A stretch of 28,210 nucleotides of DNA, from positions 1-28,210 of the IMG/VR virus record IMGVR_UViG_3300017757_000100. One strand, given 5' to 3'. A program made the translations under genes and the position numbers. The DNA comes from a virus. A model generated the notes under the pieces. The model had not been told where the DNA came from and did not search any database. It worked only from the letters and a program-made list of their open reading frames with translations. Below are positions 4,197 through 22,200 of this stretch, piece after piece (position 1 is the stretch's first letter; every line of letters begins with the position of its first letter).

Positions 4197-6221
4197 ATGG
4201 TATTAGAAAGACAAATTTTAACAAGAACTGAGCCGACGATAGCACTTGATGATTTAGAATTCAAATCATTTGAGGAAGAAGAAGGGAAGGCTGTAGTTTC
4301 AAAAGATTTAGGAGGTAGAACTCCTTTAATTCATATAAATGGTTATGTGTTTCAGGAGGGTGATGTGACAAGTATGCTACTAGATATGAATGGTAAAATA
4401 CCTAAAATTACTGTTAGTATTACTGATAGTAGCGGATATTTTATTGTTGATAATTATCCAAGAAGTGGAGATGTTTTAAGTCTTAGAATAGCTTCAAGAC
4501 AGACTGATACATATAAAGATATTAGAATAGACTTTGATATTGATAGAGTTATAGGTTCGCCTAAAGGAGCAAAAGAAAAGGACGCAGAAGGAGCAAAATA
4601 TACTTTTATGGGAGTTATGAAGATTCCAGGTCTTTTTGCTGATGTCTGTACAACATATCCAGAAGGAAGTTCATTAGACCATTTAGAAGCTATGGCGACA
4701 GACCTTCAATTAGGTTTTGCATCTAATATAGATACACCAGACCCTGAAGATTTAATGGATTTACTTATACCATTCAAAACAATGAGTGAAGTAATTAAAG
4801 AAACGGTAGAACATTCTTATACTGGAGAGGAGGGATTTCAAACATATTCAATCGATCCGTTTTATTATTTAACATATGTCGATATTAACAAAGCTCTGAA
4901 TGCCGAAGACGGCGTTGATATGTCATTTGCATCGTATGCTGAAAGATATGACGAAAATGCCGGAGAAGAGGATGATAAAATGCTATCAGCTCTAGTGTTA
5001 ACTACAAAAGAGAATGCAGAAGGAACGAATCATCATATATCTAAATATGCTCTAAAACATGGGGCAGGTGCGGTCGCTAGAAAACAAGGATTCAAAAAAG
5101 TTTTGCAGTTTTATGAAGATAATCCAATGCATGATAATGGAGGTCTTGGAGAAATTAGAACTGATGTTGAGCCTTTATCTAGTGATACTATGAAGGATAT
5201 TGAAGAACCATTAAAGGGTAGAAGAGGAGAAGAAAGGTATCTTTCTGAGATTAAATATGAATATATGGGGAGAGCAAGTAATACCGCTAATACACACCCA
5301 CAATGGAAGTTTGCAGAGACGCATAATAAGCAAAATATGACAGAGCTTAATAAGTTAAGTCTTGAGGTTGAATTACCAGTAGTTAACCCATCAATTTATA
5401 AGTATCAAAAAATTCCTGTTATTATATTTACAGAAGGTCTTAATCAAAAATTAGAATCTGATCAGGTTGAAACTAAAAAACAAGAGGAAGGATTTGAAAA
5501 CGCTGGTGTTTCTACATCTAGCGAGACAGAAGCAAGCGCTATTACAACTGGAGAACAAAAGATAAATGATTTTCTATCAGGATATTATATTGTTGGTGGT
5601 ATTCAATACATATATAGCAGTAGAGATGAGGCAATAAAAATGAAGTTAATTCTGTGGAGAAGAGAATGGCCTAGTAGAACTAATAATCTGGATGGTGCAC
5701 TATTAGATGCTAAACCAGCAGATACATCAACACCAGAACCTATTCCACCCGTTCCAGAGCCAGAACCAGAGCCAGAACCAGCGCCCGAACCAGACCCGGA
5801 ACCAGATCCAGACCCAGATCCAGAACCGGAACCAGAAGATGACGGTGTTGAATTAACTGTAACGCCTACTACTCCTATTGTATTTGAACTTGAGGAAGAT
5901 GGCGATTCAGACGCGAGGTTAATGAATATTAAAGTAACGGGCTTGACGGGTTATGATATGCTAAGTGTTACGATGCCTAAGTGGAATGACCCTAAGGATG
6001 TCTTTTTTGATTTCAAACTTCCTAACTACGACCCAAATTATGGAAATAGAGATTGGAACTTTGAACAATCCGATTTCCCAGATTTACCTGAAGGAGAGAT
6101 AGATATTGATATTGAAATATATGCAGAGGAGGTAATGGAAGAAGGGACTTGGGATATAGAAATCGATGCTGGTCAAAAAACTGTAAAAGTTCCAGTAACT
6201 ATAAAATTCCTTCCATCATAA
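4197..6221 (+). CDS. gp27: Baseplate hub protein, gp27/gpD-like, with Pro-acidic linker and extra C-terminal beta domain (674 aa)
   Basis: Likely the trimeric hub that caps the tail tube and carries the spike. The N-terminal region (residues about 40-130: HINGYVFQEGDVTSMLLDM, SGDVLSLRIAS) has the beta-barrel character of gp27/gpD hub proteins. The segment around residues 195-240 (IKETVEHSYTGEEGFQTYS, then IDPFYYLTYVDINKAL) corresponds to the T4 gp27 stretch where a short-lived helix is followed by a strand read as 'length of data to structure'. Residues 520-548 form a Pro-Glu/Pro-Asp hinge encoded by a 6-nt-periodic DNA repeat. After it comes a roughly 125-residue acidic beta-rich domain (ELTVTPTTPIVFELEEDGD to the end) resembling an Ig-like sandwich. 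T4 gp27 is 391 aa, so both hinge and final domain are additions. The spike gene lies two genes downstream. Confidence 0.65.
   Translation: MVLERQILTRTEPTIALDDLEFKSFEEEEGKAVVSKDLGGRTPLIHINGYVFQEGDVTSMLLDMNGKIPKITVSITDSSGYFIVDNYPRSGDVLSLRIASRQTDTYKDIRIDFDIDRVIGSPKGAKEKDAEGAKYTFMGVMKIPGLFADVCTTYPEGSSLDHLEAMATDLQLGFASNIDTPDPEDLMDLLIPFKTMSEVIKETVEHSYTGEEGFQTYSIDPFYYLTYVDINKALNAEDGVDMSFASYAERYDENAGEEDDKMLSALVLTTKENAEGTNHHISKYALKHGAGAVARKQGFKKVLQFYEDNPMHDNGGLGEIRTDVEPLSSDTMKDIEEPLKGRRGEERYLSEIKYEYMGRASNTANTHPQWKFAETHNKQNMTELNKLSLEVELPVVNPSIYKYQKIPVIIFTEGLNQKLESDQVETKKQEEGFENAGVSTSSETEASAITTGEQKINDFLSGYYIVGGIQYIYSSRDEAIKMKLILWRREWPSRTNNLDGALLDAKPADTSTPEPIPPVPEPEPEPEPAPEPDPEPDPDPDPEPEPEDDGVELTVTPTTPIVFELEEDGDSDARLMNIKVTGLTGYDMLSVTMPKWNDPKDVFFDFKLPNYDPNYGNRDWNFEQSDFPDLPEGEIDIDIEIYAEEVMEEGTWDIEIDAGQKTVKVPVTIKFLPS
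5754..5837 (+). repeat. CCAGAN hexanucleotide-type repeat coding a Pro-Glu/Asp hinge
   Basis: About fourteen imperfect hexamers of the form CCAGAN, CCGGAA or CCAGAC are read as alternating Pro and Glu/Asp (PEPEPEPEPAPEPDPEPDPD). Such a chain is expected to be stiff and extended, and the hexamer periodicity makes the length prone to slip by whole dipeptides. Confidence 0.85.
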
Positions 6222-6240: not shown

Positions 6241-7596
6241 ATGGCAGACTTTAGTACACCAAATGATTTTAGAAAAGGATACGCGCTCGGCAAGAATAAT
6301 CAATATTCCGACCCTACGTATCTTTCATTTACTCTTATGTTTGATTTCTTTGAAGGATATTCATCACCCCTATTAGCTGGTCCTGCGAGAGTTTTTCTTA
6401 AAGAACAATTAGAGGCAGAAGGAGATGCAGTAGAAGTAAACGATAATGATGAAATTACAGAAAATCCAGCACAGCAATATCAAGGAGTATATGGACATAG
6501 ACTTAAAGCTCTTGATGATTTTATATTTACATTAAAGAAAATAAATAAAGAGATGCCATGGTATTGGCAATCTCTATCGGGAGTAGACGCACTTCTAAAA
6601 TATGACCCACTTAAACCATATAGAGGAGGTGAAGAGGCTAAGATAACAATAGGTACATTAGAATCTATTGATTTAACTATATCAGGTTTAATGCATTTAT
6701 ATAGAACTGCATGTTTTGATGAAACGAGATGGAGCTATATTTTACCACCAAATCTAAGAAAGTTTAGGGTGTGGGTTTACGTTACAGAATGTAGGCCTAT
6801 TAAAAATTTATCTAAAATACAGGCTACTCTCGGATTTGACAAAGACGCGGCTAAAGATTCTATGAGCAGTCTTACATCAGGAGGTGGACTTAAAGGCGTT
6901 AAAGATATATTTGACCCGTCGCTTGGTGTACAGAACGCAAATGCCGGTATCAGTGGAGGAGACCATAGACCATATTTTATGTTTGAACTTGGTGGTTGTA
7001 AATGGGATTTACAAGGAGGAACTGCTCAATTTGCTGATTTACTAAAATCACCAGAAGGTTTTGCAGCTTCTGAAGTAGCCTTTTCATATAATAAAGTAGG
7101 AAAGGTAGATGCAAGGGTTCTTAATGGAACAATTGTAGAATCTGATAAAGATGCAGCTAGAATATCTCCCGCAACCGCAGAAGAATCTAAACACTATGAA
7201 CCTGATGATTTTGGAGGTTTGATTGGAGATAAAGTTATGGATAAGATTGGAGAGATGGGTGATCGTTTTGTTGATGATGCTGCAATGTTTATGGAAAAAA
7301 AGAAACAACAAATTGGCCAATTAGGTAGCGACATATATCGAGCAAATGTTCCAAATTTTGAAAACATATATACGAATATGGTAGCAGACACTGATAAGGC
7401 TACAGATATTAGTACTCTTTCTAAAAATATGCCAGAAAATGTATTAGGTCTTAAGAAGGGAGGTACTGTTAAAGATGGCTTTGACCAAAGTGCAGTAAAT
7501 GGATTAAATATTGGAGAGAACGTTAACGCTGACTCGAATACTACGAATAGCGGTACTGATGGTGATAACAACTTAGGAAATATTCACGATGAATAA
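6241..7596 (+). CDS. Second tube-like/baseplate structural protein (451 aa)
   Basis: Probable tail-tube or tube-cap structural protein. The N-terminus (DPTYLSFTLMFDFFEGYSSP) and the block at residues about 145-186 (GTLESIDLTISGLMHLYR, then LRKFRVWVYVTECRPI) look like the strand-turn-strand layout of tube-like baseplate proteins. A second block at 245-297 (YFMFELGGCKWDL, FAASEVAFSYNKVGKVDARV) matches the closing beta region. The C-terminal 120 residues are Asn/Asp/Gly-rich and probably disordered, apart from a short amphipathic helix. It is flanked by hub and spike genes. With the 567-aa protein it could fill the paired roles of T4 gp48 and gp54, but that equation is inference. Its last 8 nt overlap the spike start (ATGAATAA). 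Confidence 0.5.
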   Translation: MADFSTPNDFRKGYALGKNNQYSDPTYLSFTLMFDFFEGYSSPLLAGPARVFLKEQLEAEGDAVEVNDNDEITENPAQQYQGVYGHRLKALDDFIFTLKKINKEMPWYWQSLSGVDALLKYDPLKPYRGGEEAKITIGTLESIDLTISGLMHLYRTACFDETRWSYILPPNLRKFRVWVYVTECRPIKNLSKIQATLGFDKDAAKDSMSSLTSGGGLKGVKDIFDPSLGVQNANAGISGGDHRPYFMFELGGCKWDLQGGTAQFADLLKSPEGFAASEVAFSYNKVGKVDARVLNGTIVESDKDAARISPATAEESKHYEPDDFGGLIGDKVMDKIGEMGDRFVDDAAMFMEKKKQQIGQLGSDIYRANVPNFENIYTNMVADTDKATDISTLSKNMPENVLGLKKGGTVKDGFDQSAVNGLNIGENVNADSNTTNSGTDGDNNLGNIHDE

Positions 7597-8311
7597 AAAA
7601 ACAGCAAAAAAGGATAAAATAAGAGATACTCATTGGCTTGGTACTGTTGTAGATAATCAAGACCCTGAGAATTTTGGTAGATGTAAAGTTAAGGTTTTTG
7701 GTAAATTTGATTTACTGGAAAATGAAGCTATTCCATGGGCAACTCCAATGAATCGTAACAATGTAGGTTCTCATTATATTCCCCATGTTGGTGATGTTGT
7801 TTCTGTTAGATTTGATAATGGAAACATATACCACCCAGAATATTGGTTTCAAATCAATCAAAATAAAGAACTTAAAGACGAGGTATTAGATTCTTCTGGA
7901 GAGCCTGAAAATGTGGTATCATTAGTGTATGATGCTAAACGAAATATTAGAATATATCAATCTGAAACCGATGGTCTAGTTATAGCTCATGGAAAAGATG
8001 GTAAAGATTCTGAACCGCTTATTAGATTATCCGATGACGGTAAAATATTTTTATACGCTGCTAATATTTATATAGCAACACCAGAAGGAAGCGACTTTGA
8101 TGATATGGGTAATACTAGTCAGCCAGCAGTTAGAGGAGGAAGCTTAGAAGAGTTTCTTACTGCTTTTATAGATGATTATTCAAAACACATACACCCAACT
8201 GGTGTTGGTCCTTCTGGTCCATCAACTGAAGCAATAGCTTATAAAGCATCAAGTGCGCCAAAGCACATAAATTATCAACAAGACAATAAGTCTACAAACG
8301 CTAACTCATAA
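7589..8311 (+). CDS. gp5: Central spike protein, gp5-like OB-fold, no lysozyme domain (240 aa)
   Basis: The N-terminal region (residues about 14-94) follows the OB-fold pattern of gp5/gpV/VgrG spikes: HWLGTVVDNQDPENFGRCKV, then AIPWATPMN, then HVGDVVSVRFDNGNIYHPEYW. This domain trimerises on the hub. After it, residues 110-175 look like a short beta-helical stalk (LVYDAKRNIRIYQSETDG, IRLSDDGKIFLYAANIYI). Near the end is H200-I-H202 followed by PTGVGPSGPS, a motif common at the tips of phage spikes, where His residues can coordinate a metal. T4 gp5 is 575 aa and carries a lysozyme domain between OB-fold and beta-helix; here that is absent and the strands follow directly. Starts inside the previous gene and ends with a TAATG overlap. 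Confidence 0.8.
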   Translation: MNKKTAKKDKIRDTHWLGTVVDNQDPENFGRCKVKVFGKFDLLENEAIPWATPMNRNNVGSHYIPHVGDVVSVRFDNGNIYHPEYWFQINQNKELKDEVLDSSGEPENVVSLVYDAKRNIRIYQSETDGLVIAHGKDGKDSEPLIRLSDDGKIFLYAANIYIATPEGSDFDDMGNTSQPAVRGGSLEEFLTAFIDDYSKHIHPTGVGPSGPSTEAIAYKASSAPKHINYQQDNKSTNANS

Positions 8312-9792
8312 TGCCTGCAAATTGGAGTTCATTTATAAGTAATGTTGAGAGTTATATTATCTCTCAACCCCCTTCTCCTACTGAATTAGGAAAGCATATA
8401 GCTAAGGAGTATCATACAGCAATTAAACAATCACAATCAATGTGGGGACAAACTCATGTTTCTGGTAGTAATAGCGGTTTATTATCTACATATGGAACTC
8501 AATTTGAAAGAATGAAAGAAGAACATGAAGAACTTCAACCAACTCTTTGGAATAAAGTAGATGAAGATGGAAATGAAATACCATTTACTGGTAGAACAAG
8601 CGATCCGAATAATCCAAATCCCGCACAACCAGACCCTGAATATGCCGACCCTGATATGGAAGAGGTTCAACCTCCTCCAATAGACCCAGAAAAGATGCGT
8701 GATTTTTTAGGTGAATATAGTTCAGAATATGATTTACATGAATATGAGTTTTTTGAATTTGTTTTAGTTGGTGGCGAAACAAAAGATGAGGTATCATATA
8801 TAATATCGAATCGAATATTATTTACTCTAATGTCAGAATCTAGCGGAAGTAAACGAAAAAAGATAGTAGAGTGGGTAGATAGTTTTGGAACATGGGAAGA
8901 AGGAGGCTTAACGAACTCAGATGCGTATGCTGCATTTAAGAGTGACGTTGAGTCAGCAATAAGTGATGGTGGTTATAGTTCTTCATATATTATAGACAAA
9001 GTTAAATCAAGAACACTTGATAAACTTAAATCTTCTTATAATGAAACTAATCTTGGAGAATTAAAAACTAAAGCTAAAAATGGTAAACCATCAGAAATGA
9101 AATATCATGAAAATTATAATAAAGATTTTCTTAAAACATATGCACAATTAGAGTTTGATGAAGATAATGATGACGATGATTATAAAGTTTCTCCTATTTT
9201 ATTAAAAGAATTTATATGTTATTTTTCATTTACTGGAAGAGACAAATCCTCTGAATGGAAGGATAGTCAAGTTGAGTCTGAATATATTGACGGTGAAATG
9301 GGAGACTGGGCAGAGATAGTAACGCCACAGACTGCTGATGACGTTGTCAATAATAAAAATAAAGCTGCACCTTACATGTATACTAGGCAGCAAACTGTTG
9401 ATGCGCTTGACGAGGCAGATAATAGCGAAGTAGGCGAGGATCCGTATGAAATGCTAGCAGAAGAGACTATACAATATTGGAAAGATACAACAACACAACC
9501 ATTAAAATCTACACCTCCTGCCCCTCCATGTTTATCAAAGAATCCATTAGGTGGAACTTATATTGGAGTATATTATGGAAGTAAAAAGAAATTAGCCGAA
9601 GGTTTAAGAAAAGCATTAAATGCAGGTAAAGAATCTGATAATATACCAGAAGCTGCTAACATGGTTGCGACAGCCCTTTCAGTGGCTTATGCCAAACATT
9701 TAATGGAACTTAAGTTCATATATTTAGGAGGTATACCTGTTCCTCTTGTACCATACGTGCCTATGATTGGTTTTGTGCCAAATGTGTTCTAA
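8311..9792 (+). CDS. Unknown tail-tip protein following the spike (493 aa)
   Basis: No family is recognised with certainty. The N-terminus (WSSFISNVESYIISQPPSPT, then EYHTAIKQSQSMWG) resembles a helical subunit-contact region. Residues about 90-130 form a Pro/Asp/Glu-rich hinge (NNPNPAQPDPEYADPDMEE). Residues 140-400 are acidic and mainly helical. The C-terminal 95 residues are strikingly different: PPAPPCLSKNPLGGTYIGVYYG, then VATALSVAYAKHLMELKF, ending in a Pro/Val-rich hydrophobic tail (PVPLVPYVPMIGFVPNVF). The gene is coupled to the spike gene by a one-base overlap (TAATG) and is the last before an apparent promoter. A role with the spike, as tip, plug or chaperone, is suggested by position only. 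Confidence 0.7.
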   Translation: MPANWSSFISNVESYIISQPPSPTELGKHIAKEYHTAIKQSQSMWGQTHVSGSNSGLLSTYGTQFERMKEEHEELQPTLWNKVDEDGNEIPFTGRTSDPNNPNPAQPDPEYADPDMEEVQPPPIDPEKMRDFLGEYSSEYDLHEYEFFEFVLVGGETKDEVSYIISNRILFTLMSESSGSKRKKIVEWVDSFGTWEEGGLTNSDAYAAFKSDVESAISDGGYSSSYIIDKVKSRTLDKLKSSYNETNLGELKTKAKNGKPSEMKYHENYNKDFLKTYAQLEFDEDNDDDDYKVSPILLKEFICYFSFTGRDKSSEWKDSQVESEYIDGEMGDWAEIVTPQTADDVVNNKNKAAPYMYTRQQTVDALDEADNSEVGEDPYEMLAEETIQYWKDTTTQPLKSTPPAPPCLSKNPLGGTYIGVYYGSKKKLAEGLRKALNAGKESDNIPEAANMVATALSVAYAKHLMELKFIYLGGIPVPLVPYVPMIGFVPNVF

Positions 9793-9794
9793 AC

Positions 9795-9809
9795 TTTAGA
9801 TATATAATA
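9795..9809 (+). promoter_or_regulatory. Late-promoter-like motif upstream of the S1-like gene
   Basis: TTTAGATATATAATA lies 40-54 nt before the ATG at 9849 in a 56-nt gap. It is the closest match to the motif at 1853 (12 nt shared from TTTAGATATATAA). A promoter here would let the S1-like gene be read independently of the baseplate genes upstream. Confidence 0.5.
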
Positions 9810-9848
9810 TAATAATACAAATTTAATAACCCTTAAAAAATAAAACAA

Positions 9849-11054
9849 ATGTCAAAGGAAACCGTTGTTGATACAAACAACATAGACAAGAAAAAACCAG
9901 AATTCGATTGGGATGCATTAGAAGCAAGCTGTCCAAGTACAAGAAGAAAAAGAGCAAAAAGATTAAAAAACGGAACAAAGATATTTTGTACTGAACCATA
10001 CGCTGAAGAAGCACTAAAACTTTACAACCAAGATTTTACTGAAAATAATAGGATAGTTGGTGTTGAACTAAATAAATCCTATGAAGGAACTGTCGATTCA
10101 ATTAGCGTCGAGTGGTGTACTATTGATATTGGAGCTAGAGACTCTGTGTATGTAGATATGTCAAAAGAAGCAGAAGAGTACAAGAACTTATTAAAACCTG
10201 GAGAAAAGATTAATGTTCAAATAATAGAATCTAAAGGTTCTAAACAAGGAAAATATATATTAGGTTCAGTTGAAGCTGGATTTAAGCGCGCAGTATTTAA
10301 TGAAATTTTAGATAGTGTAGATAATTCTAAAACTGCATATAACTCCACTGTAAAAAGTATTATACCAGGTGGAGGTTATATTGTAGAAATACAGGGTATA
10401 GAATGTTTTATGCCAGGTTCTTTAGCTGGAATAAATAAGCTACATGATTTTGAATCTATATTAGGAACTGAAATGTATGTGGTACCTATGAATTATTCTT
10501 CTGATAGAGGAACTATTGTAGTATCTCATAGAGAATATTTGAAGGCAATGATTCCTACTAAAATTGCTGAAATAAAAGAATATGAAAATGGAGTTGTAGT
10601 TAAAGGTAGCGTAACAGGTTCTGCTAAGTTTGGAGTATTCTGTGAATTTAACGAGTGCTTAACTGGTATGATTCATATAAATGATTTAGATGAAGAAACT
10701 CTAAAAAGACATAAAGATAGAGAGATTACACCAGGAGAGGAAATAGAATTCTTTATTAAGAAAATTATTTCAGATACTAAGATTACGTTATCTCAAAAGC
10801 CTGTTGAGGCGGTGACTGATCCGTGGTTTAATGCTTCTGAAAGATTTAAGACTCCTATCGAGGTTGTCGGTAAGGTTAGATCGGTTAAAGACTATGGCGT
10901 ATTTGTTGATATTGGAGATGGCCTTGTAGGGTTACTGCATGTATCTGAATTCCCTGAAGGACATGATTTGAATGAACTTATAAAAGGAAATGACATCACT
11001 GTCACTGTTACGAGAATTGATGAAGAGACTCGTAAAGTTTTCCTTAAATTATGA
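9849..11054 (+). CDS. Ribosomal protein S1-like protein with four S1 RNA-binding domains (401 aa)
   Basis: Four consecutive S1/OB domains are seen at residues about 76-141, 165-230, 249-318 and 336-401. The fourth is canonical: VVGKVRSVKDYGVFVDIGDG, then GLVGLLHVSEF, then VTVTRIDEETRKVFLKL. The N-terminus contains PEFDWDALEAS, very like the FDWDA(F/Y)E region I recall from Bacteroidota S1, and domain 2 keeps the S1 pattern ECFMPGSLAGINKLHDF and IVVSHREYLKA. Cellular S1 of this phylum has six domains, so this matches its first four, shortened. S1 recruits mRNA to the 30S subunit, which matters especially where Shine-Dalgarno pairing is unused. A phage copy may steer ribosomes to phage mRNAs, or act in RNA handling; that role is inferred. 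The AATAAAACAA leader has no Shine-Dalgarno element. Confidence 0.88.
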   Translation: MSKETVVDTNNIDKKKPEFDWDALEASCPSTRRKRAKRLKNGTKIFCTEPYAEEALKLYNQDFTENNRIVGVELNKSYEGTVDSISVEWCTIDIGARDSVYVDMSKEAEEYKNLLKPGEKINVQIIESKGSKQGKYILGSVEAGFKRAVFNEILDSVDNSKTAYNSTVKSIIPGGGYIVEIQGIECFMPGSLAGINKLHDFESILGTEMYVVPMNYSSDRGTIVVSHREYLKAMIPTKIAEIKEYENGVVVKGSVTGSAKFGVFCEFNECLTGMIHINDLDEETLKRHKDREITPGEEIEFFIKKIISDTKITLSQKPVEAVTDPWFNASERFKTPIEVVGKVRSVKDYGVFVDIGDGLVGLLHVSEFPEGHDLNELIKGNDITVTVTRIDEETRKVFLKL

Positions 11055-11109: not shown

Positions 11110-11502
11110 ATGAAACTAACAGAAAAAAGATTAAGAGAAATCATTAGAGAGGAATTAACTTCTGCAGATGGTCACGTAGATGAGATTCTTCCTGCAGTAG
11201 CTGCTACAGTAGCAAGACAAGCGGCAGCTGGAGCGGTTGCTGATAAATTATCAGAAGGACTAGGTACTTTAATAAAGAAAGTTACTGAAGGTATTGTACC
11301 TCAACCTAAAGATTTAGTTAGTCTAGTTACGGCTTCTGCTGAAATGCATGACGCTGATGAGGATGATGAGCATACATACGAAGGATTTATGGGAGCTGCT
11401 AAAGAATTGGTAGAAAACGCTATCGCTAAAGTTGTTGGAAATGCAGCAAAAGATGCGGCTGCTGATGCGGTTAAAGATAAAATAGCGGCAAAGATAGGCT
11501 AA
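11110..11502 (+). CDS. Small Ala-rich protein with N-terminal KLTE-IIREEL tag, possible packaged head protein (130 aa)
   Basis: The N-terminus MKLTEKRLREIIREELTS is a short tag of a type I recall on many unrelated proteins of marine and Bacteroidota T4-like phages. It is laid out like the T4 capsid-targeting sequence MKTYQEFIAEA, which the prohead protease cuts after an I/L-x-E site; here I-R-E occurs in the same place. The rest is Ala-rich with amphipathic helices (AVAATVARQAAAGAVADKL; VGNAAKDAAADAVKDKIAA) and an acidic patch (HDADEDDEH). It could be an internal head protein or a membrane-active peptide; function is not established. An in-frame ATG at 10990 is rejected because it overlaps the S1-like gene and precedes the promoter-like motif. 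A terminator follows 32 nt after the stop. Confidence 0.75.
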   Translation: MKLTEKRLREIIREELTSADGHVDEILPAVAATVARQAAAGAVADKLSEGLGTLIKKVTEGIVPQPKDLVSLVTASAEMHDADEDDEHTYEGFMGAAKELVENAIAKVVGNAAKDAAADAVKDKIAAKIG

Positions 11503-11615: not shown

Positions 11616-12908
11616 ATGAACAGATTTAACGACGCAGAAATATTATCAAAATCTCTAGTGGGGGTAGAGTTTGAATTCTACTCGAATAAAGATATAAACA
11701 CAACAGCTAAAGAGCTTGGTGCGCTATTATCTAAAAAAATTAGAGTTGAAGACAAGGCGCATAGTGATTTTATCGTTACTGATAAAGTATTCAAAATAGA
11801 ACCAGATATGAGTGGTGGAGAGAAGCTCATGGAGTTAGTTACTGGGGCGATACCATACAATGATGCAAGACTCATGATTATTCGAGTTTCTGAGTGGATT
11901 AAATTACATGGATATACAAACGACAGAACATCGATTCACTTAAATCTTTCATTTGATAAAAATAAACTAAAAAATAAAAATAGAATATTAAAAATGAATG
12001 TTCTTAAGTTTATTTTAGAATTTGATGAGGACACCGTATTTAATATATTTCCACAAAGAGAAAATTCAGCATACGCCAAGTCTATAAAGTTTATACTTCC
12101 AAATTCAGAAACATTTAATATTGATGGTGATTTAATCGATGAAAATAATTTTATATTTCCAAATTCAAAATACTATGGCATTAATTTTGAGAAGAGAATT
12201 AAAAATTATTTAGAGTTTAGGTATATAGGCGGTAAAGAATGGGAAACAAAAACTAGTAAAATATTAAGTCTATTAGATTCATTTTTAGTTCAACTATGGA
12301 AAAGTACAGAATCTAAAAAATTTACACACTTCAATTCATTAGAACTTAAAAAAATTCTTTCTAGTAATAAAAGAATTATAGATGCAAGAACTAACTGGAA
12401 AGTAATTGAAAAGAAATGGAAAAATATTGATTTTACCGTTGACTTATCTAAAGATGCAAATATTATACAGAATTTTTGGTCAACTATCCATAAAAAAGTC
12501 ATAAAATTATTTACACACGGTTCTATTTCTAAGGGCCATATAAATTATGATTCCGATACTGGAAAGATTCAAGTTAAGGATGGTGAATTATCTTATTGCG
12601 TGGCTCTAGAAGGATATGATTTTATAGATTGCGATATTAGAGGTGAATTATCACAGTGCGATATATTTGGTGGTAATACAAATGATTCAGATGTGATAGA
12701 TTGTAATTTCTATAATGGTGCTAAAATAAAATCATCTAAAATTAAAAGCTCCTATGTTAGTGTAGATTCTAATGCAGAAGATTGTTATATTTATGGTAAG
12801 GGTATGTTCAAAGGAGAAATGACAGGTGGTATATTTAGAGAAGGTATATATGATAAAAAGAAAGCAAGGTTTGATAAGACTGAGAAAATAAAATATGAAG
12901 AAAAATAA
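11616..12908 (+). CDS. Amidoligase (COOH-NH2 ligase)-like protein with C-terminal repeat solenoid (430 aa)
   Basis: Residues 1-220 carry the signature spacing of the amidoligase/glutamate-cysteine-ligase-like fold: G16-V-E-F-E20 (metal-binding acids), then IEPDMSGGEKLMELVTG (E62, D64, E73), then SIHLNLSF (H108), then YLEFRYIGG (E200, R202), as in the 'VEFR' motif that ends the fold. The family uses ATP to form amide or peptide-like bonds between a carboxylate and an amine. Residues about 330-415 are a different domain of short imperfect repeats with Cys/Asp/Gly-rich turns (YDFIDCDIRGELSQCDIFGG, VIDCNFYNGAKIKSS), resembling a pentapeptide or beta-solenoid stack. It is placed between a terminator and the neck protein gene, so it is probably late. 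Its substrate is unknown. Confidence 0.68.
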   Translation: MNRFNDAEILSKSLVGVEFEFYSNKDINTTAKELGALLSKKIRVEDKAHSDFIVTDKVFKIEPDMSGGEKLMELVTGAIPYNDARLMIIRVSEWIKLHGYTNDRTSIHLNLSFDKNKLKNKNRILKMNVLKFILEFDEDTVFNIFPQRENSAYAKSIKFILPNSETFNIDGDLIDENNFIFPNSKYYGINFEKRIKNYLEFRYIGGKEWETKTSKILSLLDSFLVQLWKSTESKKFTHFNSLELKKILSSNKRIIDARTNWKVIEKKWKNIDFTVDLSKDANIIQNFWSTIHKKVIKLFTHGSISKGHINYDSDTGKIQVKDGELSYCVALEGYDFIDCDIRGELSQCDIFGGNTNDSDVIDCNFYNGAKIKSSKIKSSYVSVDSNAEDCYIYGKGMFKGEMTGGIFREGIYDKKKARFDKTEKIKYEEK

Positions 12909-12919
12909 AATAAAAGGAT

Positions 12920-13729
12920 ATGAGTAATATATTTTTAGGTGGTGCATCAGGCATGGAGACAGAACAAACATATAGCTCGACGTGTTTAGCTGATTTTGCC
13001 ACAGAATTAGCAGATGAAATTACAGGCGCATGTATGATTCCAATGAATCTTCCATCATCTGAGGTTGAAGCAATTGTTAATAGAGCTAAAAAATGGTTCT
13101 ATAAAAAATATGAATATTCTGTTCAAGAGAATTTCTTTGTAATACCTAAAGCCGCATTTGAATCAACTTATTTCAAGGCATCAAGAACTATCAACATGCC
13201 AGCGGGCGTATATTCTATTTTTGGTGTTCATAAAACTAATGCGAGTTCTATAAGTAATGATGTAGACTTCCAAGCTGGTTCAGATTTTAATGTAGAACGA
13301 ATGTTTACTGCAAATATGTACGGAAATGCTGGAGTAGCAGGTGCAGCAGAACAATTAGAATATTATATAGTAAGTCAGAAGTTCTTTGATTTAGCACGAC
13401 AAGTATTACAGAACCCGTATAGTTTTGACTATAATAGACTTAATAGAGCTTTAAGATTTACTGGAGAAACTCCAACATCTGATATTATATTAGAGGTTTA
13501 TGAAACTATTCCAGACTGCGCGTTGTTTCAAGATGAGATGTTTTTTAGATATTGTTCAGCTAAAATAAAGATTTCTCTTGGTTCTAAATTAAGTATTTTC
13601 GAGTTCCAACTACCTGGTAATATAACTGTTAATGGAAGCGCGATACAAGATATGGGAACAAGCGAACTTGAGGGTATAATAGAAGAAATAAATATGGATG
13701 AGGGAACTGACTGGATGATGCACTCATAA
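12920..13729 (+). CDS. gp13: Neck protein, T4 gp13-like (269 aa)
   Basis: Layout matches T4 gp13 (309 aa), which with gp14 closes the head vertex after packaging and joins head to tail. The N-terminal helical region (SSEVEAIVNRAKKWFYKKYE, residues about 43-62) precedes a beta segment with INMPAGVYSIFGVHKTNAS, like the 'FDLR...V..I..I' stretch of gp13. Near the C-terminus, DIILEVYETIPD and a helix with FFRYCSAKIKISLGSKL are followed by QLPGNITVNGSAIQDMGTSE, which aligns with the gp13 stretch [20 protein letters not shown]. In T4 gene 13 lies after 12 and wac, away from 25; here it directly precedes the gp25-like gene. The assignment rests on remembered T4 sequence. Confidence 0.62.
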   Translation: MSNIFLGGASGMETEQTYSSTCLADFATELADEITGACMIPMNLPSSEVEAIVNRAKKWFYKKYEYSVQENFFVIPKAAFESTYFKASRTINMPAGVYSIFGVHKTNASSISNDVDFQAGSDFNVERMFTANMYGNAGVAGAAEQLEYYIVSQKFFDLARQVLQNPYSFDYNRLNRALRFTGETPTSDIILEVYETIPDCALFQDEMFFRYCSAKIKISLGSKLSIFEFQLPGNITVNGSAIQDMGTSELEGIIEEINMDEGTDWMMHS

Positions 13730-13742
13730 ATAGGATATATAG
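13729..13742 (+). promoter_or_regulatory. Promoter-like motif immediately upstream of the gp25-like gene
   Basis: AATAGGATATATAG ends only 4 nt before the ATG at 13747. The distance would make a T4-type transcript leaderless or nearly so. It is a twin of the element before 6241. Confidence 0.38.
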
Positions 13743-13746
13743 TTAT

Positions 13747-14100
13747 ATGGAATTTTATATAAAGAAATACGGAGACCCTAAATTTGATGTAAGTCAAATG
13801 GAAGTTGATGATGAGATTACAGAGATTTTAATTCAATTAGAAACTTTGTTATTTACAACTAAAGGTTCTGTACTAGGCGATCCAGATTTTGGTTTGAATT
13901 TAGATGATTATGTATATTCTTTTAGATATAATGATAATATGTTGGTTAAAATTATTAGAGAAGACATTAATAGGTTTGTACCACTATCAAAAAAATATAA
14001 TGTAGACACTTCTGTTGTTTTTACAGATGAAGTTGATAGACACTTAGTGTTTGTTAGTATCGTTGTAGATTCTAAGTATCAGGTCGGTCTTTACATATAA
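13747..14100 (+). CDS. gp25: Baseplate wedge protein, gp25/gpW-like (117 aa)
   Basis: Clear member of the GPW/gp25 family, the small wedge protein that connects the gp6-gp7 core to the sheath and starts sheath polymerisation. Residues 38-57 hold the hallmark: TKGSVLGDPDFGLNLDDYVY, equal to the T4 stretch RKGSRPFDPEFGCDLSDQLF. A long helix precedes it and the expected helix (NMLVKIIREDINRFVP) and strand pair (DTSVVFTDEV, FVSIVVDS) follow. T4 gp25 is 132 aa. Choosing ATG 13747 keeps the N-terminal residues of the family; the internal ATG at 13798 would remove them. The gp6-like gene starts 15 nt downstream, the order gp25-gp6-gp7 being typical of P2-like phages and contractile injection systems. 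Confidence 0.93.
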   Translation: MEFYIKKYGDPKFDVSQMEVDDEITEILIQLETLLFTTKGSVLGDPDFGLNLDDYVYSFRYNDNMLVKIIREDINRFVPLSKKYNVDTSVVFTDEVDRHLVFVSIVVDSKYQVGLYI

Positions 14101-14115
14101 ACATTAACAATTAAA

Positions 14116-15939
14116 ATGGAATATAAATTCAAATATTTAGAAAAGTCTAGAATCAAGACAAAAGAAATGATAAGTGATACTCAAACTTTTATAAGTAGAG
14201 TATATAATAGAGCAGGGACTCTATTCACGTCTGCATCACCATTTGCCCAAATATTAAATGTATTACAAGAACTTTCAAGTTTTATTTTCCTTTATATAGA
14301 AGATGCAATGGTAGAACAAAACATATTAACTGCACAGCATAAAGAATCTGTATATGGTTTATCAAGACTTGCAGGTCACGATCCATTTAGAGGCTCTTCT
14401 GCTCAGGGCGAAATAAGAATAAGATTAAATCCAACAACGGTTGCTGAGGTAGCTGGAGATGCTGTTAATATACTACCAGATAGTATAATTAAAATGGAAG
14501 CTAATAGTCTAAAATATACTATGCTAACTAATTCAGATAAATTTAGAATTTCAAAAACAACTTCTACGTTTATTAGAATACCTATAATTCAAGGAGAGGT
14601 TGAAAGACAAACCGTAACCGGTACTGGAGAAAAGTTTCAATCTTTTAATATAATAACTAAAGGAAATACTGACCACAATCATGTTAAGGTTTCTGTAAAT
14701 AGTATTCCATGGGAGAAATATAGTTCTATATATGATATGAAGGTTGGAACTACCGGGTTTATAGTAAAAACTGGGATTACTGGAGGATTGGATGTTTATT
14801 TTGGAAATGGGAGTTTTGGAGCTCTTCCTCCATTAGGAAGTTCTATAGAAATTCAATATATTAAAAATCAAGGTGATAATGGAAATTTAATTGGAGGCAA
14901 AAATTTAAGATTTAAGTTTGAGTCTGAAGGGTTTGATAGTATAGGAAATTCATATGACTTAAATGAACTATTAGATACTGAAGTATCAGTAACGCCTAGA
15001 ATGGGCTCAAATCCTGAAAGTATAGAACTTACAAAACTTATCGCTCCACTACAATCACATGGATTTGTATTGGCTACTCCAGATAATTATGAGGCATTTT
15101 TATCTCAATATGGTATGTTTTCATATTTAGATGCATATAGTACTACTGATGATGGATATTTAGACGATGATAATGTTATCTATTTATTTATGTTGCCGGA
15201 TGTTAAGAGAAAACTTGTACAAAATAAAGATTATTTTAGTTTAGAGCTTGATGAATTCTTCTTTTCTGAAGATGAAGAAAACGCGGTGCTTAATATAATT
15301 GAAAAATCAGGTAGACAAATGTTAACTTCTGAAATTAAAATTACTCCTCCGTCACCTCAATATTTTAGAATGGATATTAAAGTAAGATATTTTGAAGGAT
15401 ATGATAAGCACAGCATTTTTAATGATATAAGAGCTCAAATATCAGAATATCTAGTACATATTACTCGTAGAGATAGATTACCAAAATCTGATATAATAGC
15501 TATACTAGAAGGCGTTAAAGGTATAGACTCTGTTAATGTAAGATTTGTTAGTAAGGCAGAAGAAGAGGCAAGAAAAAATGGTTATTATGTTTCAGAAACC
15601 GTGACTATTACACCAAATACTCCAATACTTGAAGATATAGGTAACGGTCAACAAAAGATGGTATTTTTCAAAAGAACAGTTAAGAAAAGAAATGTTAGAT
15701 TTGAAAAAGATGCGGCTCTTCCAGAAAATGTAATAAATTTAGATTCATTTGGAGATATTCTTTTAGAAAAAGATGAGGTTGCATTATTTAGAGGTGGTTG
15801 GCAAGATAGAGACGATATATTAGTAGAAGATGACGCTTTAATTGGAGAAATGGGAGCATTATCAGTTTACTTTGATGAGCCTCCAGTTCCTCAAACTATA
15901 TTTACTAGAGTTCAGGCAAAAAATAGAAAATCAATATAA
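14116..15939 (+). CDS. gp6: Baseplate wedge protein, gp6/gpJ-like (607 aa)
   Basis: Wedge-core protein of the gp6/gpJ (baseplate_J) family; in T4 two copies per wedge form the inner ring of the baseplate and drive its opening. T4 gp6 is 660 aa. The N-terminal helix region is followed by the family-like LSRLAGHDPFRGSSAQGEIR (residues about 83-102). Beta-rich segments follow (VYFGNGSFGALPPLGSSIEI, the typical 'FGdG..G..P..G..i' motif). Residues about 445-478 contain EYLVHITRRDRLPKSDIIAI followed by VKGIDSVNVRF, the C-terminal alpha/beta unit by which gp6 subunits dimerise. The gene lies between gp25-like and gp7-like genes, as expected. It ends with a one-base overlap (TAATG). Confidence 0.88.
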   Translation: MEYKFKYLEKSRIKTKEMISDTQTFISRVYNRAGTLFTSASPFAQILNVLQELSSFIFLYIEDAMVEQNILTAQHKESVYGLSRLAGHDPFRGSSAQGEIRIRLNPTTVAEVAGDAVNILPDSIIKMEANSLKYTMLTNSDKFRISKTTSTFIRIPIIQGEVERQTVTGTGEKFQSFNIITKGNTDHNHVKVSVNSIPWEKYSSIYDMKVGTTGFIVKTGITGGLDVYFGNGSFGALPPLGSSIEIQYIKNQGDNGNLIGGKNLRFKFESEGFDSIGNSYDLNELLDTEVSVTPRMGSNPESIELTKLIAPLQSHGFVLATPDNYEAFLSQYGMFSYLDAYSTTDDGYLDDDNVIYLFMLPDVKRKLVQNKDYFSLELDEFFFSEDEENAVLNIIEKSGRQMLTSEIKITPPSPQYFRMDIKVRYFEGYDKHSIFNDIRAQISEYLVHITRRDRLPKSDIIAILEGVKGIDSVNVRFVSKAEEEARKNGYYVSETVTITPNTPILEDIGNGQQKMVFFKRTVKKRNVRFEKDAALPENVINLDSFGDILLEKDEVALFRGGWQDRDDILVEDDALIGEMGALSVYFDEPPVPQTIFTRVQAKNRKSI

Positions 15940-16214
15940 TGGCTGTAAAATTAACCGATGGTTTATTCAAAAGTAGAAGAGTTAAAGTATATCAAGTATC
16001 AAGACAGTTTTCAGATGATAGAAAAAACCTACCTAATAATTATAGAATAAATATACTAAGGAATTCTATATCTTCTCATATTTTTAGAAATAATCAGATG
16101 TGGGATTTTATAACCTATATTCAAGATGTTGTTGCAAATTGGGTTGATGCAGTCAACCAAATAAAAGTGTTCAAATCTTTCACTGTAAAAAAGGACTATA
16201 AAAATATTAGGTAA
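15939..16214 (+). CDS. Small hypothetical baseplate protein between gp6-like and gp7-like genes (91 aa)
   Basis: Unrecognised protein with a basic N-terminus (KLTDGLFKSRRVKVYQVS) and a Trp-containing helix (MWDFITYIQDVVANWVDAVN). No signal peptide or transmembrane segment. Both ends overlap their neighbours by one base (TAATG), the tightest linkage in the window, so it is probably made in step with the two wedge-core proteins. T4 has no gene between 6 and 7. It may be an extra wedge subunit or a part of gp6 or gp7 that was split off; neither can be shown here. Confidence 0.75.
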   Translation: MAVKLTDGLFKSRRVKVYQVSRQFSDDRKNLPNNYRINILRNSISSHIFRNNQMWDFITYIQDVVANWVDAVNQIKVFKSFTVKKDYKNIR

Positions 16215-19200
16215 TGAGTAAATATTCAAATCTTAAATTCTTTGATAGTAATTCCGATGAATTGAATCTTAATTATGATTCTACTACACAGTCTTGGAAT
16301 GGTATTGTGTATCTTCCTGAGGTTTCAGTAGGGCTATATGAGACTCTAACTATTTATATATTAGAAGAGGTTAGAGGAGAGCTTGGTGAAACTAAGTATA
16401 TTAAACCAATAACACCAACAACTTCTGGAGTAAATGACAACCTGATAATAAACTTTGAAGGAGGGTATGACACTAGTATAGAATCTGACGGCGTTAATAA
16501 TGATATTACGATGTACACTACTACGACGGTAGTTGATGATAACGATATTCCAGAGCTTTATATTAAATATGAAGAATCTACAATAAAGACAAGAAGTCCT
16601 CAGAGTATAGTGACTGGAACTTCTGGAATTTTTGATACTGTATTAAGTTCAGTACAAAATGAACCTATTCAAATCAATGTAGCATTAAAATCAAAATTAG
16701 AAACATATCATAAAAGAACTTTAAGCATTAATGAGGTAGATTCTAGTGGTACAATAACGCATAATGTCGCAACTATAAGAATTTATGGAGAAACTGTAGC
16801 TGAAGACGAAAGATTAGAGGCTTTAATATCTAATATTGGTATGTCTCTTTCGCCATCTGACCATTTTGTTTTTGAAGATGCTAATTTAAGAGAGTCTAGT
16901 CCTGACTGGAAACTTATAAATAGAAAAAGAAGAGAACTTTTATTAGAGGCTTCAAATATTAAACCATTTATAGGAACATATAAAGCCCTATTAAATGCTA
17001 TTAAATATTTTGGATATGAAAATATAACTCTTAAAGAATATTACTTAAATATAAACGAGCAGGCTGAGAATTTTGGTAAATTAAAGGCAGTGGCAGTACC
17101 TAATCAAGAAGTTAGAGGTTTTTTAGCTGCAAAAAGTACAATGAGTGGTGGTGTAATGCCGAACTCAAATCTAAAAAAGACATCAAGATTCTCATTGGTG
17201 TATAGATTAAATAATGCAACAGGAGAATACGATGAATGGGATATTCCAGAAGTTAAAGAAGCATTAGAGTTTTCTCCTGATGAAGTTTTAATTAAATTAT
17301 ACGGACTTAAAGATAGACTACAATTAACCTATGTTCCAATGCATGCTAAAATTGTTGATATTTGTGGAGAGGGAGATTACTTTGCTCAATTCAATATAAA
17401 TACATGGAATAATCAACAAAACATATATAGCGTTAATGAAGGTGTAGAGGTTGGATATGAGCTTTTCCCAGAAAGACCATTATTCCTAGAAGACTTAAGA
17501 AAGGTTAGTCCATTATTTACTGGAGTTGGTCAAGATTTTACACAAATGGCAAACACATACGAAATAGATGCGGGCCCGCAATCATGGTGGAAAATGGGAG
17601 AATATGAAAAATTAGTACCAGAATTATACGATCCTATTACAGGTGCATTTGATTCTGCAACTAAAATTACAGACAATATAGGTAGTAATAATGGAATAAT
17701 AAGAGACATGGCATTTGGGATAGACTCTACATTTGCTGTTGACCATGCGGCTGGCGCTGAAGTATTATATGTAGAAGATGCAAGCACTTGGTCAAATACA
17801 CATAATATAACATATACTGGCGCTACAATTGAGCCAGGAAATCTAATTGCATGGTCAGAATTAGATACTTCAGTTCTTATTACTGGTGTTTCTACTAATG
17901 GTGCATACACAACTGCTTCAGGAGCTAATATAACCTTGACTGGAAATTTAACAGATTGGCCACATAAGGGAAGTTTGAAAATTGGTGCGGAAACTCTTGG
18001 TTATTCTGGAATTATAGGACAGGTATTAACCGTTAACTCATGTTCTACAAATGGTGCTACCATTGCGAGTGGTACAGCAATTACATCTGCTACTGTATTA
18101 TATCATCCTAATAGTTGGGTGACTCATGGTCTTAATTGTTATTATACACATGCTGGTGGGATTGCTGGATTTGGTACAAATACAGCAGTACCTCCTGTTC
18201 ATTTATCTGGAGAGGTACTTGATGGGCCTACTGGAGTTTTATGGAAACATGTACCAAATGGAACTGAAAATAAAAACGCTATTGCTAGGTCCACGCCAAT
18301 AGGTATTTATCCTAAAAATGCGGCGCTAACGGTTACAGATTACACTTCACCAGTATCGTTCACAACAACATTAAATAATGGTGGTGCATTTAGTTTTCTT
18401 GATACTGAGTGTACGCTAACCACAGTTGCAGGGTTAAGAAAGGCAGGTATAATTACAATATCTAATGGTATAACTATTAGATATTCAGGAATAGCTGGTA
18501 ATAAACTTACTGGTTGTGTTTCTTCTATGACATCAGGTTCTATACCAGATGGAAGTGCAACATTATTACAAAGAGGTTTTTGGGAAATAGCTACACTACG
18601 TTCAACTACACAAACTGCTATCCTTAAAGGGGCTAAAGTTTCTAATAGTGCTTTTTCAAATGACAGTCCACCTCAAACAACAAGTACTAAATCTCTATCA
18701 TTTGATGCTAAAACTAATTATGTTTCTGTACCGTTTGTTAATGACAATATTAGACCTAAGAATGCGTTAACTATGAACGTTTGGGTAAAACATGATAGTT
18801 GGCTACCATCTAATACAACTTCATATAATGCAAATAATGCGACTCAACATATAATCAGTTGCTTTTCTGCGGCCGGTGGGTTTAGGCTATATTGGGAAGG
18901 TGCTAGAATATACGCTACAATGTCGATAAGAGATGACTCTGCTTTGGGGAATTCATATAAAGGCGTTGGAACAGGATACAATAACTTTAACGCTACAATA
19001 ACTGGGAATCAATCTACAACAGCACAAGCTGCTAACGCTCAAGGAGCAAATGCTTTATTTTGGGAGGCAGGTAACAACGATTGGTACATGCTAACTGTTA
19101 CGTTCGATGGAAGGTATATAAAATTATATGTAAATGGCGAGTTAGTTGACCAGCCTGGTGTTTGGGTTAATGGTGGTGTTGTAGGTGGACCTGCAATATC

Positions 19201-22200
19201 TGATTTAGGGTCATATGGTCATGAAATATATTATGACGATGACAAACCTATAGACTTACATATTGGTGGTGAAGCGAAATGGGACCCAGGAACAACTTCA
19301 ACTATAAATGATTTTTTACATTGGGACGGTCTAATAGACGATGTTTCAATATGGAATACACCACTAACCTCGGCTAGAATTAAAGAATTATATAAGGGAG
19401 TATTACCAAGTAAGACAGGTTCTCTTGGAGATAATCCTATAACTGATATTACTTCTTTTTATACAAATTATGTAGATTCTGATTTATCTACATTCTCTGA
19501 AACAGATATTCCAGTAGGATGTCCAATAGTACTTCGAGCTAATTCTTTATTAGATAAATTTGATGATTGTAATTTTACATGGGAAGATGGAGAGGATGAA
19601 GGAGAACTTACAACAACATGGGATAAGTGGTGGCATAGAAATGTATATGAGGTTCAATGGAGGCTAATAGGACCTACGGTTAACGGTGTAAAATATGATA
19701 GAAGCTTTAGAGGAAATATTTTAGATTTTTATGAGATAGCATTAACACTACCATATGTTGGTAAATATGACGTTGAACTTTCATTCTATGATTTATATAA
19801 TGTTAGGAGCGTTAAGTTTGAAAAAGAAACAATTGAAGTAAACTCTAAAGAAATTGAAACATACGCAATCACCCAACATCATGTTCCAAAGAAAGACTGG
19901 AATGAATATGTTATATATGATTGGGACGGTGTTGGTTCTGATTGGGATACTTCAAATGAAAATGAAGAAGAAGTTGAAGATTTTATAGGTTCATATTATC
20001 TTACATTAGATAGAGCTAACTACGCAAACTCTGATGCTGATTGGAGAAAATCAACAATAGTTAGATACGTTGATACTATTAACTTTAGTGCTACTCCACC
20101 ACTAACAGCTGGATTTGCTGATAGTACAGGGCCATATATTTGGAAAAATCTTAAAAAACATACATGGCATAATGGAGAAACAATGTCTTGGAATACAACT
20201 AGAATAGGTGCCGATATGAACCCATCCTTTTCATTTGATATTACAGATACTAAAAAGGTTGGGCTTGCACTATCATACTATGCTGGAAATAATATAGATA
20301 TATCTCCTGTCGTTACAGATATAACCGCTCCCGCATATACTGCGGGTACTCTTGGTAATGTAGTTATGAGTGACGTTTTAATAGGATGGCCAGCAACTGG
20401 AACTGTTGTCGTTGGCGGTGGTGCTATTCTTACGTATACTAGTATATTGACAAGTGGCGATACTTTAGTTGTTTCTGTTGATAATGGTGTTGATATATTG
20501 GCAAACACGTCTTGTATATCGGTAACCGCCCTATCAACAGATACATATACATCAACTATAGCACCCGCTAATAATGCAGATTTAGCAAATTGGGATTTAA
20601 TAGCAGATGAATTAAACGCCTTATTAGGTGATACTTTACCAGTTTATACTACCGTAGCAACAAGCGTTACTGTTAATAATGGTGTTGTTTCAGATTGTGC
20701 TACAGAAATTGCTTCACCGTCTACTACTGGAGATACTTTATTATACGCAAAGGATGCAAGCAACTATTTAGCGACAGGTGTTATAACATATACTAATGCA
20801 GTATCAGCATCAGTAAGTACAACAGCTTCTCATATAGAGAATTTTACAGTACAAAATTTTAAGGATATATTCGTAACACATGTTACGGTTAATGGTGTAT
20901 ACACAACTACTTCAGGAGCTAATATAACCTTGACTGGAACATTAACATCTTGGCCAACAGCAGGAACTTTAATAGTTGGTGGAGAAACTATTATTTACTC
21001 TGCAATTTCTGGGCAAGTATTAACCGTTACTTCATGTACTATAAATAATGCTACCATTGCAAGTGGTACAGCATGTACAAGTATAACGGGTACAGCAATA
21101 AACCCTACCACTACTACATGCGGAGTGTATACTTCAGGTGCACTTGGTAACGTAACTATGAGTGGTGCATCTATGAATGTTGGTGCAGGGTGGCCGCATG
21201 CTGGTGCGGTAACAATGACTGGTGGAGGAACTCTTAGATATACTAGTAGAACAGCCACTCAATTAACTGTTTCTTATGACAGTGGTATTACTACAACAAT
21301 CACATCACCAACAACAACAACAGTAAGGGTGGCAGCTAATGCTGATAAATATGTATTTGTCACTAATGCCGCAGGTTGGGTTCCTGGAAATGTAGGATAT
21401 ACAGACACTGGAGGTACTGTAAGAACTGGAACTTTAGTTTCAGTAGTTAATAAAACAGGTACAGATACTTCTGGTGTTGTAACGAATGTTGTTGCTCCCG
21501 CATATACTGCAGGTACTTTAGGTGCCGTAACAATGGTGGGTGATATGGATGCTGGTGATAAATGGCCACAAGCTGGTACTGTAGTAATAGGCTCAACCAC
21601 TCTTACTTATAGTAGTAGAACAGGTACTGTGTTAACCGTTACTGCTGATAATGGTACATCTATTGGTTCTCCAGCAAATTGTGTTAATGTAACTGGTTTA
21701 GGTTGGGAATTAGAATTTGCAGCTCCTTATGTAATTACTGGAATTGCAAACGGTGCTAATATTACTGGGGTAGTCTTAGGAATACCAGTAGGTACAGGTT
21801 GTGTATCAGTAATAGGATACTATGAAATAACAGTTCCTGGACTTCCTGCAACGAATCCTCCAGGTACTATTGAAACTGATCCAATTAACGGACAATCTCT
21901 TGGATTTGCTAGCGGTGGAGCAACATTAACATTAGCAGGAGATTTAACTGCTTGGCCAAATACTGGTACAGTAGTAGTCGGTGGATATTCAATTGAATAT
22001 AATGATATAGCTGGACAGGTACTTACTGTAATGTCAGATAATGTTGATTGCTCACCAGTGGCTGATGGTACTAATATTACTTATTTCAAAGAAAAGGAAT
22101 ATCCACAATTATCTAAATATACTTTTAATGCCGTTAAGGTTGATGTGAATAATGATGGTATTTTAGATACATGTGATCAGATGTTGGCAGTTGCTAACGG

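Follow-up and report, generated by a model that had tools for sequence, protein, structure and literature searches.

A divergent bS1 homologue of viral descent encoded in the tail gene block of a phage lineage

Introduction

Why would a phage keep a gene for an S1-domain protein among its tail genes, and is the product a true ribosomal protein bS1? The ambiguity of S1 domains led Mizuno et al. (2019) to omit S1 from their survey of viral ribosomal proteins (PMC6375957), and Al-Shayeb et al. (2020) found a 'true' phage rpS1 hard to confirm (PMC7162821). The locus considered here lies in a virus record of 28,210 bp (IMG/VR record IMGVR_UViG_3300017757_000100, analysed at its whole length and called the window below), with a contractile-tail gene block on the + strand. 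An initial annotation had described one ORF of this block as an S1-like protein with four S1 domains and a Bacteroidota-like N-terminus, lacking the last two domains of bS1:

9849 to 11054, + strand: phage bS1 homologue, 401 amino acids, four S1/OB domains (profiles, AlphaFold2, structure matches)

The ORF encodes a divergent bS1 homologue

Judged by its profile and structure matches, ORF 9849-11054 is a divergent bS1 homologue and not a generic S1-domain protein. Pfam S1 alone scores two domains in the product (E 6.8e-20) and PHROGs holds no family matching it; the NCBIfam bS1 model NF004952 covers residues 54-399 at E 8e-49. The equivalog cut-off of NF004952 was not reached (166 of 524 bits), and since the cut-off of TIGR00717 was met by just 2 of 14 control genomes, a score of this kind points to divergence rather than to a different family. 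Phage S1 aligns collinearly with PDB bS1 chains; on E. coli bS1 the collinear stretch runs to residue 344, where the fourth domain ends. The AlphaFold2 model, built from 35 relatives, contains four OB folds (mean pLDDT 76, pTM 0.49), and its top structural matches are bS1 chains on the 30S subunit (9gut_B, E 2.7e-24); with bS1 models matching end to end, the four S1 domains first proposed are borne out. Tandem S1/OB domains make up the protein, with no other domain present, and matches to PNPase (E 4e-16) and RNase R (6e-6) models are weaker than those to bS1. PNPase, RNase R, Tex or another S1-domain protein was thus ruled out by lower scores and by the missing partner catalytic or core domains, and the placement with PNPase or Tex that the initial annotation had named as speaking against its reading was not seen.

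The individual parts of the protein are as follows:

9903 to 9923, + strand: FDWDALE, putative bS1 anchor segment of the Bacteroidia type, with F19 and W21 unchanged throughout (alignment; role by analogy with E. coli)
9924 to 10046, + strand: phage-specific linker (C-P-S/T...KVFS-E-YAQE) before domain 1, with a helix at residues 50-65 (alignment, AlphaFold2)
10062 to 10274, + strand: S1 domain 1, matches bS1 D1 (domain profiles)
10311 to 10544, + strand: S1 domain 2, matches bS1 D2, invariant F-M-P-G-S and V-S-H (profiles, alignment)
10575 to 10808, + strand: S1 domain 3, RNA-binding residues F264 and H276 kept, profile nearest D5/D4, not D3
10842 to 11051, + strand: S1 domain 4, matches bS1 D4/D5, invariant Y349, F352 and H364 (profiles, alignment)

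Profiles of bS1 domains D1-D6 were built from cellular proteins, and each phage domain was scored against all of them. The first domain scored 23.8 bits on the D1 profile (at most 9 on the others) and the second 40.7 bits on D2 (at most 8 on the others), a specific match to bS1 D1 and D2 that bears out the assignment as a true S1 homologue. Across 35 relatives the F-x-P-G-S motif of bS1 D2 (FMPGS) never varies, and RNA-binding positions F264, H276, Y349, F352 and H364 in domains 3 and 4 show little or no variation.

The third domain departs from this pattern. In the window protein it scored 38 bits on D5, 29 on D4 and 20 on D3, the lowest of the three, and the preference for D5 is common to the other phages scored, except LR756500. 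All six control bS1 proteins, two four-domain proteins included, score best on D3 with their third domain, which makes the phage third domain unusual. An identity as D5 is favoured by the profiles; the 71-column single-domain tree does not favour it, rejecting no origin of this domain. That the protein simply lacks the last two domains is therefore not established: D1-D4 without D5-D6 is one way among others to read its architecture.

The Bacteroidota-like N-terminus, by contrast with the missing domains, proved both real and specific. F[DN]W, as part of F[DN]W..[FY]E or a near variant, precedes D1 in 72 of 72 full-length Bacteroidia bS1 proteins and in none of 21 others (0/13 from the same phylum search, 0/8 from other phyla). 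Among distinct phage relatives F[DN]W occurs in 41 of 44 and FxW in all 44, against a chance occurrence of about 0.3% per 90 amino acids; position 24, the second aromatic of the segment, varies (Y, H, L or F). E. coli S1 is held on uS2 by the stacking of two N-terminal residues, Phe5 and Phe9 (PMC4288201). By analogy, the phage segment may be functionally equivalent to this uS2 anchor.

A fixed place in the tail gene block

The S1 gene is surrounded by the following genes:

7589 to 8311, + strand: baseplate spike/OB protein (gpV-like), upstream neighbour
8311 to 9792, + strand: conserved gene directly upstream of S1
11110 to 11502, + strand: small gene after S1, only in part of the family
11616 to 12908, + strand: conserved gene for a 430-amino-acid protein, always follows S1
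12920 to 15939, + strand: head-tail adaptor (12920-13729), gp25-like protein (13747-14100) and gp6-like baseplate wedge (14116-15939)

The gpV-like spike, adaptor, gp25-like protein and wedge confirm the tail-block setting first described. In 66 IMG/VR loci and in the 462-kb phage LR756500, S1 occupies the same slot on the same strand, and all 13 loci that were found via the gp6-like neighbour and cover the slot carry it. Its position among late structural genes, which the initial annotation found unexpected, was confirmed as a position; it is less surprising than claimed, because Bacteroidetes phages also keep bS21, a gene with late expression, in a structural-gene region (PMC9723584).

The product of the gene at 11616-12908 is 50-79% identical among relatives and has a pentapeptide-like C-terminus; no Pfam match was obtained up to E 1, and its GVEFEF start recalls amidoligase-like enzymes. 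Elsewhere in the block, a protein encoded at 4197-6221 has an internal proline-glutamate repeat (PEPEPEPAPEPDPEPD), and a 2116-amino-acid protein (16214-22564) contains many degenerate repeats (TLTGxLTxWPxxGTLxVGGExxxYxxIxGQVLTV); the latter is kept in the block, its length differing between relatives.

An old viral lineage under purifying selection

A total of 67 further loci of the window S1 family were found in IMG/VR, at 48-94% identity. The dN/dS of the S1 gene is 0.09-0.17, as low as or below that of most neighbours, and the gene is under strong purifying selection. In a maximum-likelihood tree, the window family, LR756500, Lak and four phages of >600 kb form one clade (100/100) on a long stem, and cellular Bacteroidota bS1 forms a separate clade (100/98). 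In this comparison with Bacteroidota S1, which was proposed initially, the phage proteins form one group, and an AU test did not reject their union with Bacteroidota bS1 (p values of 0.20 and 0.23). The long branch keeps the tree from placing the phage clade inside Bacteroidota bS1, and the shared N-terminal motif is the sole positive evidence for such nesting. A Bacteroidota host for the S1-bearing phage, a large myophage, is supported.

A search of 297 Bacteroidota genomes returned, among the matches listed, none above 32% identity to phage S1. Recent capture from a host was rejected on this low identity and on the long phage stem. With a single phage clade this far from host S1, the sequences indicate that phage S1 is an old virus-owned lineage. 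Taken together, phage S1 is real, conserved and, by selection, functional: a divergent bS1 of viral descent.

In Lak and the >600-kb phages, S1 is not near these tail genes, and cultured phages with related tail genes (PTm1, PAU, MaF61, MA9V-1 and pT24) have no S1 domain whatever. Lak S1 (L070, L174) has the F[DN]W and KVFSHESYAQ segments in common with the window family and has lost the fourth domain. Three huge phages (LR756504, LR745206 and LR756502) encode a second S1-domain ORF of 601-646 amino acids besides the bS1 homologue. Four >600-kb phages also encode bS21, as does one S1-family contig of 93.9 kb (L023, G308:84539-84691); bS21 is absent from six other long contigs.

Leaders and upstream elements

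Two elements were recognized ahead of the S1 gene:

9798 to 9807, + strand: AGATATATAA box (ATATATA), promoter-like, upstream of the S1 gene
9822 to 9839, + strand: leader element TTTAATAACCCTTAAAAA, conserved before the S1 gene only

The Shine-Dalgarno-less setting presumed at the outset was confirmed: GGAGG occurs in 0 of 444 phage leaders, and the region -14 to -11 is rich in A (0.63-0.67). In a 234-kb relative (232 ORFs), the A content of this region is 0.59 against a background of 0.38. A similar A-rich leader region is found in Flavobacterium johnsoniae. In that species translation increases with A at -12/-13, and bS1 domain 4 is believed to sit close to mRNA nucleotides -12 to -15 (PMC6847099).

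The ATATATA box precedes the S1 gene in 37 of 39 distinct leaders, and in the window AGATATATAA also precedes the genes at 1885, 6241, 11110, 11616 and 13747, structural genes among them. When ten long box-bearing genes of the 234-kb relative were tested, six had a family match, and all six were virion genes. The box stands before 37 of the 232 ORFs of this genome, against about 14 expected; given this spread over the whole genome, the idea of a strictly late promoter was dropped and the box is called promoter-like only. Late control of the S1 gene may be inferred from sequence.

The TTAACC leader element is found before the S1 gene in 20 of 39 leaders, compared with at most 3 of 41 for any other gene of the block, and TTTAATAACCCTTAAAAA is conserved over phages that are 50% divergent. 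E. coli rpsA is autoregulated by S1, and TTTAATAACCCTTAAAAA is a candidate site of autoregulation by the phage protein.

Proposed function and alternatives

The mechanism that we consider most likely, with somewhat better than even confidence, is that phage S1 docks on the ribosome and recruits A-rich late phage mRNAs. The protein would be made together with the late structural genes and would dock on the 30S subunit at uS2, replacing host bS1 or sitting beside it; its last two domains would hold the A-rich leaders of late phage mRNAs near the mRNA exit, so that initiation on structural mRNAs might be raised at peak demand. Phage S1 retains the anchor half (the F-x-W segment, D1 and D2) and two OB domains with RNA-binding residues. 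E. coli S1 can bind 30S and support initiation with D1-D3 alone, does so better with D4 added, and has little need of D5-D6 (PMC3858243); bS21 and bL12 encoded by viruses are taken up into the ribosomes of E. coli (PMC6375957). Against this proposal, E. coli S1 relies on its third domain, whereas phage domain 3 is not a recognizable D3; the second aromatic of the anchor segment, at position 24, is variable; and close cultured relatives manage without an S1 gene. Host genes also carry the A-rich motif at -14 to -11, so the motif by itself does not favour phage over host mRNA. A more far-reaching version is tentative and, in our estimate, probably incorrect: that an old virus-owned bS1 turns Bacteroidota ribosomes into late-phage ribosomes, replacing host bS1 by a shorter S1 that is adapted to phage leaders and has a changed domain order, with D5/D4-like domains after D1-D2.

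Several other explanations deserve consideration. Phage S1 may act off the ribosome, where it would protect, unfold or tether phage mRNA or help an RNA polymerase or RNase of the phage, much as host S1 serves T4 RegB and the Q-beta replicase. In phage biology bS1 is known to work outside the ribosome as well (quoted in PMC13157829), whether rpS1 acts on or off the ribosome is left undecided by Al-Shayeb et al. (PMC7162821), and phage D1 is strongly diverged from cellular D1. We regard this as unlikely, for 30S docking is linked to the N-terminal segment and D2, both of which are conserved. Those same parts could instead serve a decoy that fills the uS2 site, blocks host bS1 and shuts down host translation rather than promoting that of the phage. 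The retention of the anchor half with only two RNA-binding domains and a non-canonical third domain would suit such a brake, as E. coli S1 cut down to D1-D2 still attaches to 30S but fails in initiation (PMC3858243). However, a mere plug would have no need of the conserved F264, Y349, F352 and H364, and a gene in the late structural block would act at a time of high translational demand by the phage itself; we accordingly think a decoy quite unlikely.

The fixed place between baseplate and adaptor genes, at all 66 loci and in LR756500, also invites the idea that the protein travels with the virion, as cargo or as a tail component, and enters the cell at infection, where it would act on the earliest mRNAs, as has been put forward for phage bS21 (PMC9723584). 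S1 does not appear to be a needed tail part, since the same lineage lies elsewhere in Lak and >600-kb phages and the cultured myophages with the same tail genes do without it; no targeting sequence was identified in phage S1 either, and we hold a virion role to be improbable. As for the possibility that the sequence is host contamination, or that the protein is some other RNA-binding protein with several OB domains and no kinship to bS1, the score far below the NCBIfam cut-off could be taken in its favour. Yet the second domain matches bS1 D2 only, the architecture is collinear and the Bacteroidia motif is present, while virus genes flank S1 in 67 genomes and the 297 Bacteroidota genomes gave no close copy among the matches listed, leaving this explanation next to no probability.

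Relation to known systems and significance

Phage rpS1 (Al-Shayeb et al. 2020) and late bS21 (Chen et al. 2022) are already known, and window S1 is the S1 counterpart of this bS21, with clearer evidence that it is a bS1. The rpS1 of huge phages (PMC7162821) and Lak shares with it both the 100/100 clade and the S1-domain architecture (four domains, three in Lak); these proteins too occur in settings with few Shine-Dalgarno sequences, and an initiation role had been suggested for them before (PMC7162821). The window family differs in belonging to a lineage with contigs of up to 236 kb, in keeping F-x-W together with the four-domain length, and in having S1 locked in the tail block, a slot common only to LR756500. 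The third domain is its one odd feature. The bS21 of Bacteroidetes phages is likewise an initiation ribosomal protein encoded in a conserved structural-gene region (PMC9723584), although it is a different protein and its late expression was shown, whereas that of window S1 is presumed; for bS21, Chen et al. considered that phage mRNA may be selected late in infection and that the protein may be packaged in virions (PMC9723584).

Among cellular proteins, Bacteroidia bS1 (rpsA) shares with phage S1 the F[DN]W motif, D1, D2 with F-x-P-G-S, and OB repeats with RNA-binding residues, but has six domains and mostly 580-760 amino acids, with identity of at most 32% among the matches listed; phage S1, unlike cellular bS1, has a third domain that is not D3-like and an extra conserved linker. 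The bS1 of PhiMa05 (PMC13157829), set beside window S1 by description, is also phage-encoded and proposed to enter host ribosomes; it belongs to a jumbo cyanophage, where it is one of six ribosomal proteins, and comes from a Vampirovibrio-like host. The best viral structural matches, A0A7S9STL2 (Virus NIOZ-UU157) and A0A8D9CG03 (uncultured marine phage), are database predictions with 36% and 32% identity over nearly the full length.

The D2 and N-terminal signatures settle the S1 ambiguity for one lineage and so provide a clean case. Bacteroidota ribosomes work without Shine-Dalgarno pairing, for which bS1 is suspected to stand in; a phage bringing its own S1 would permit a direct test of bS1 as the Shine-Dalgarno substitute in Bacteroidota.
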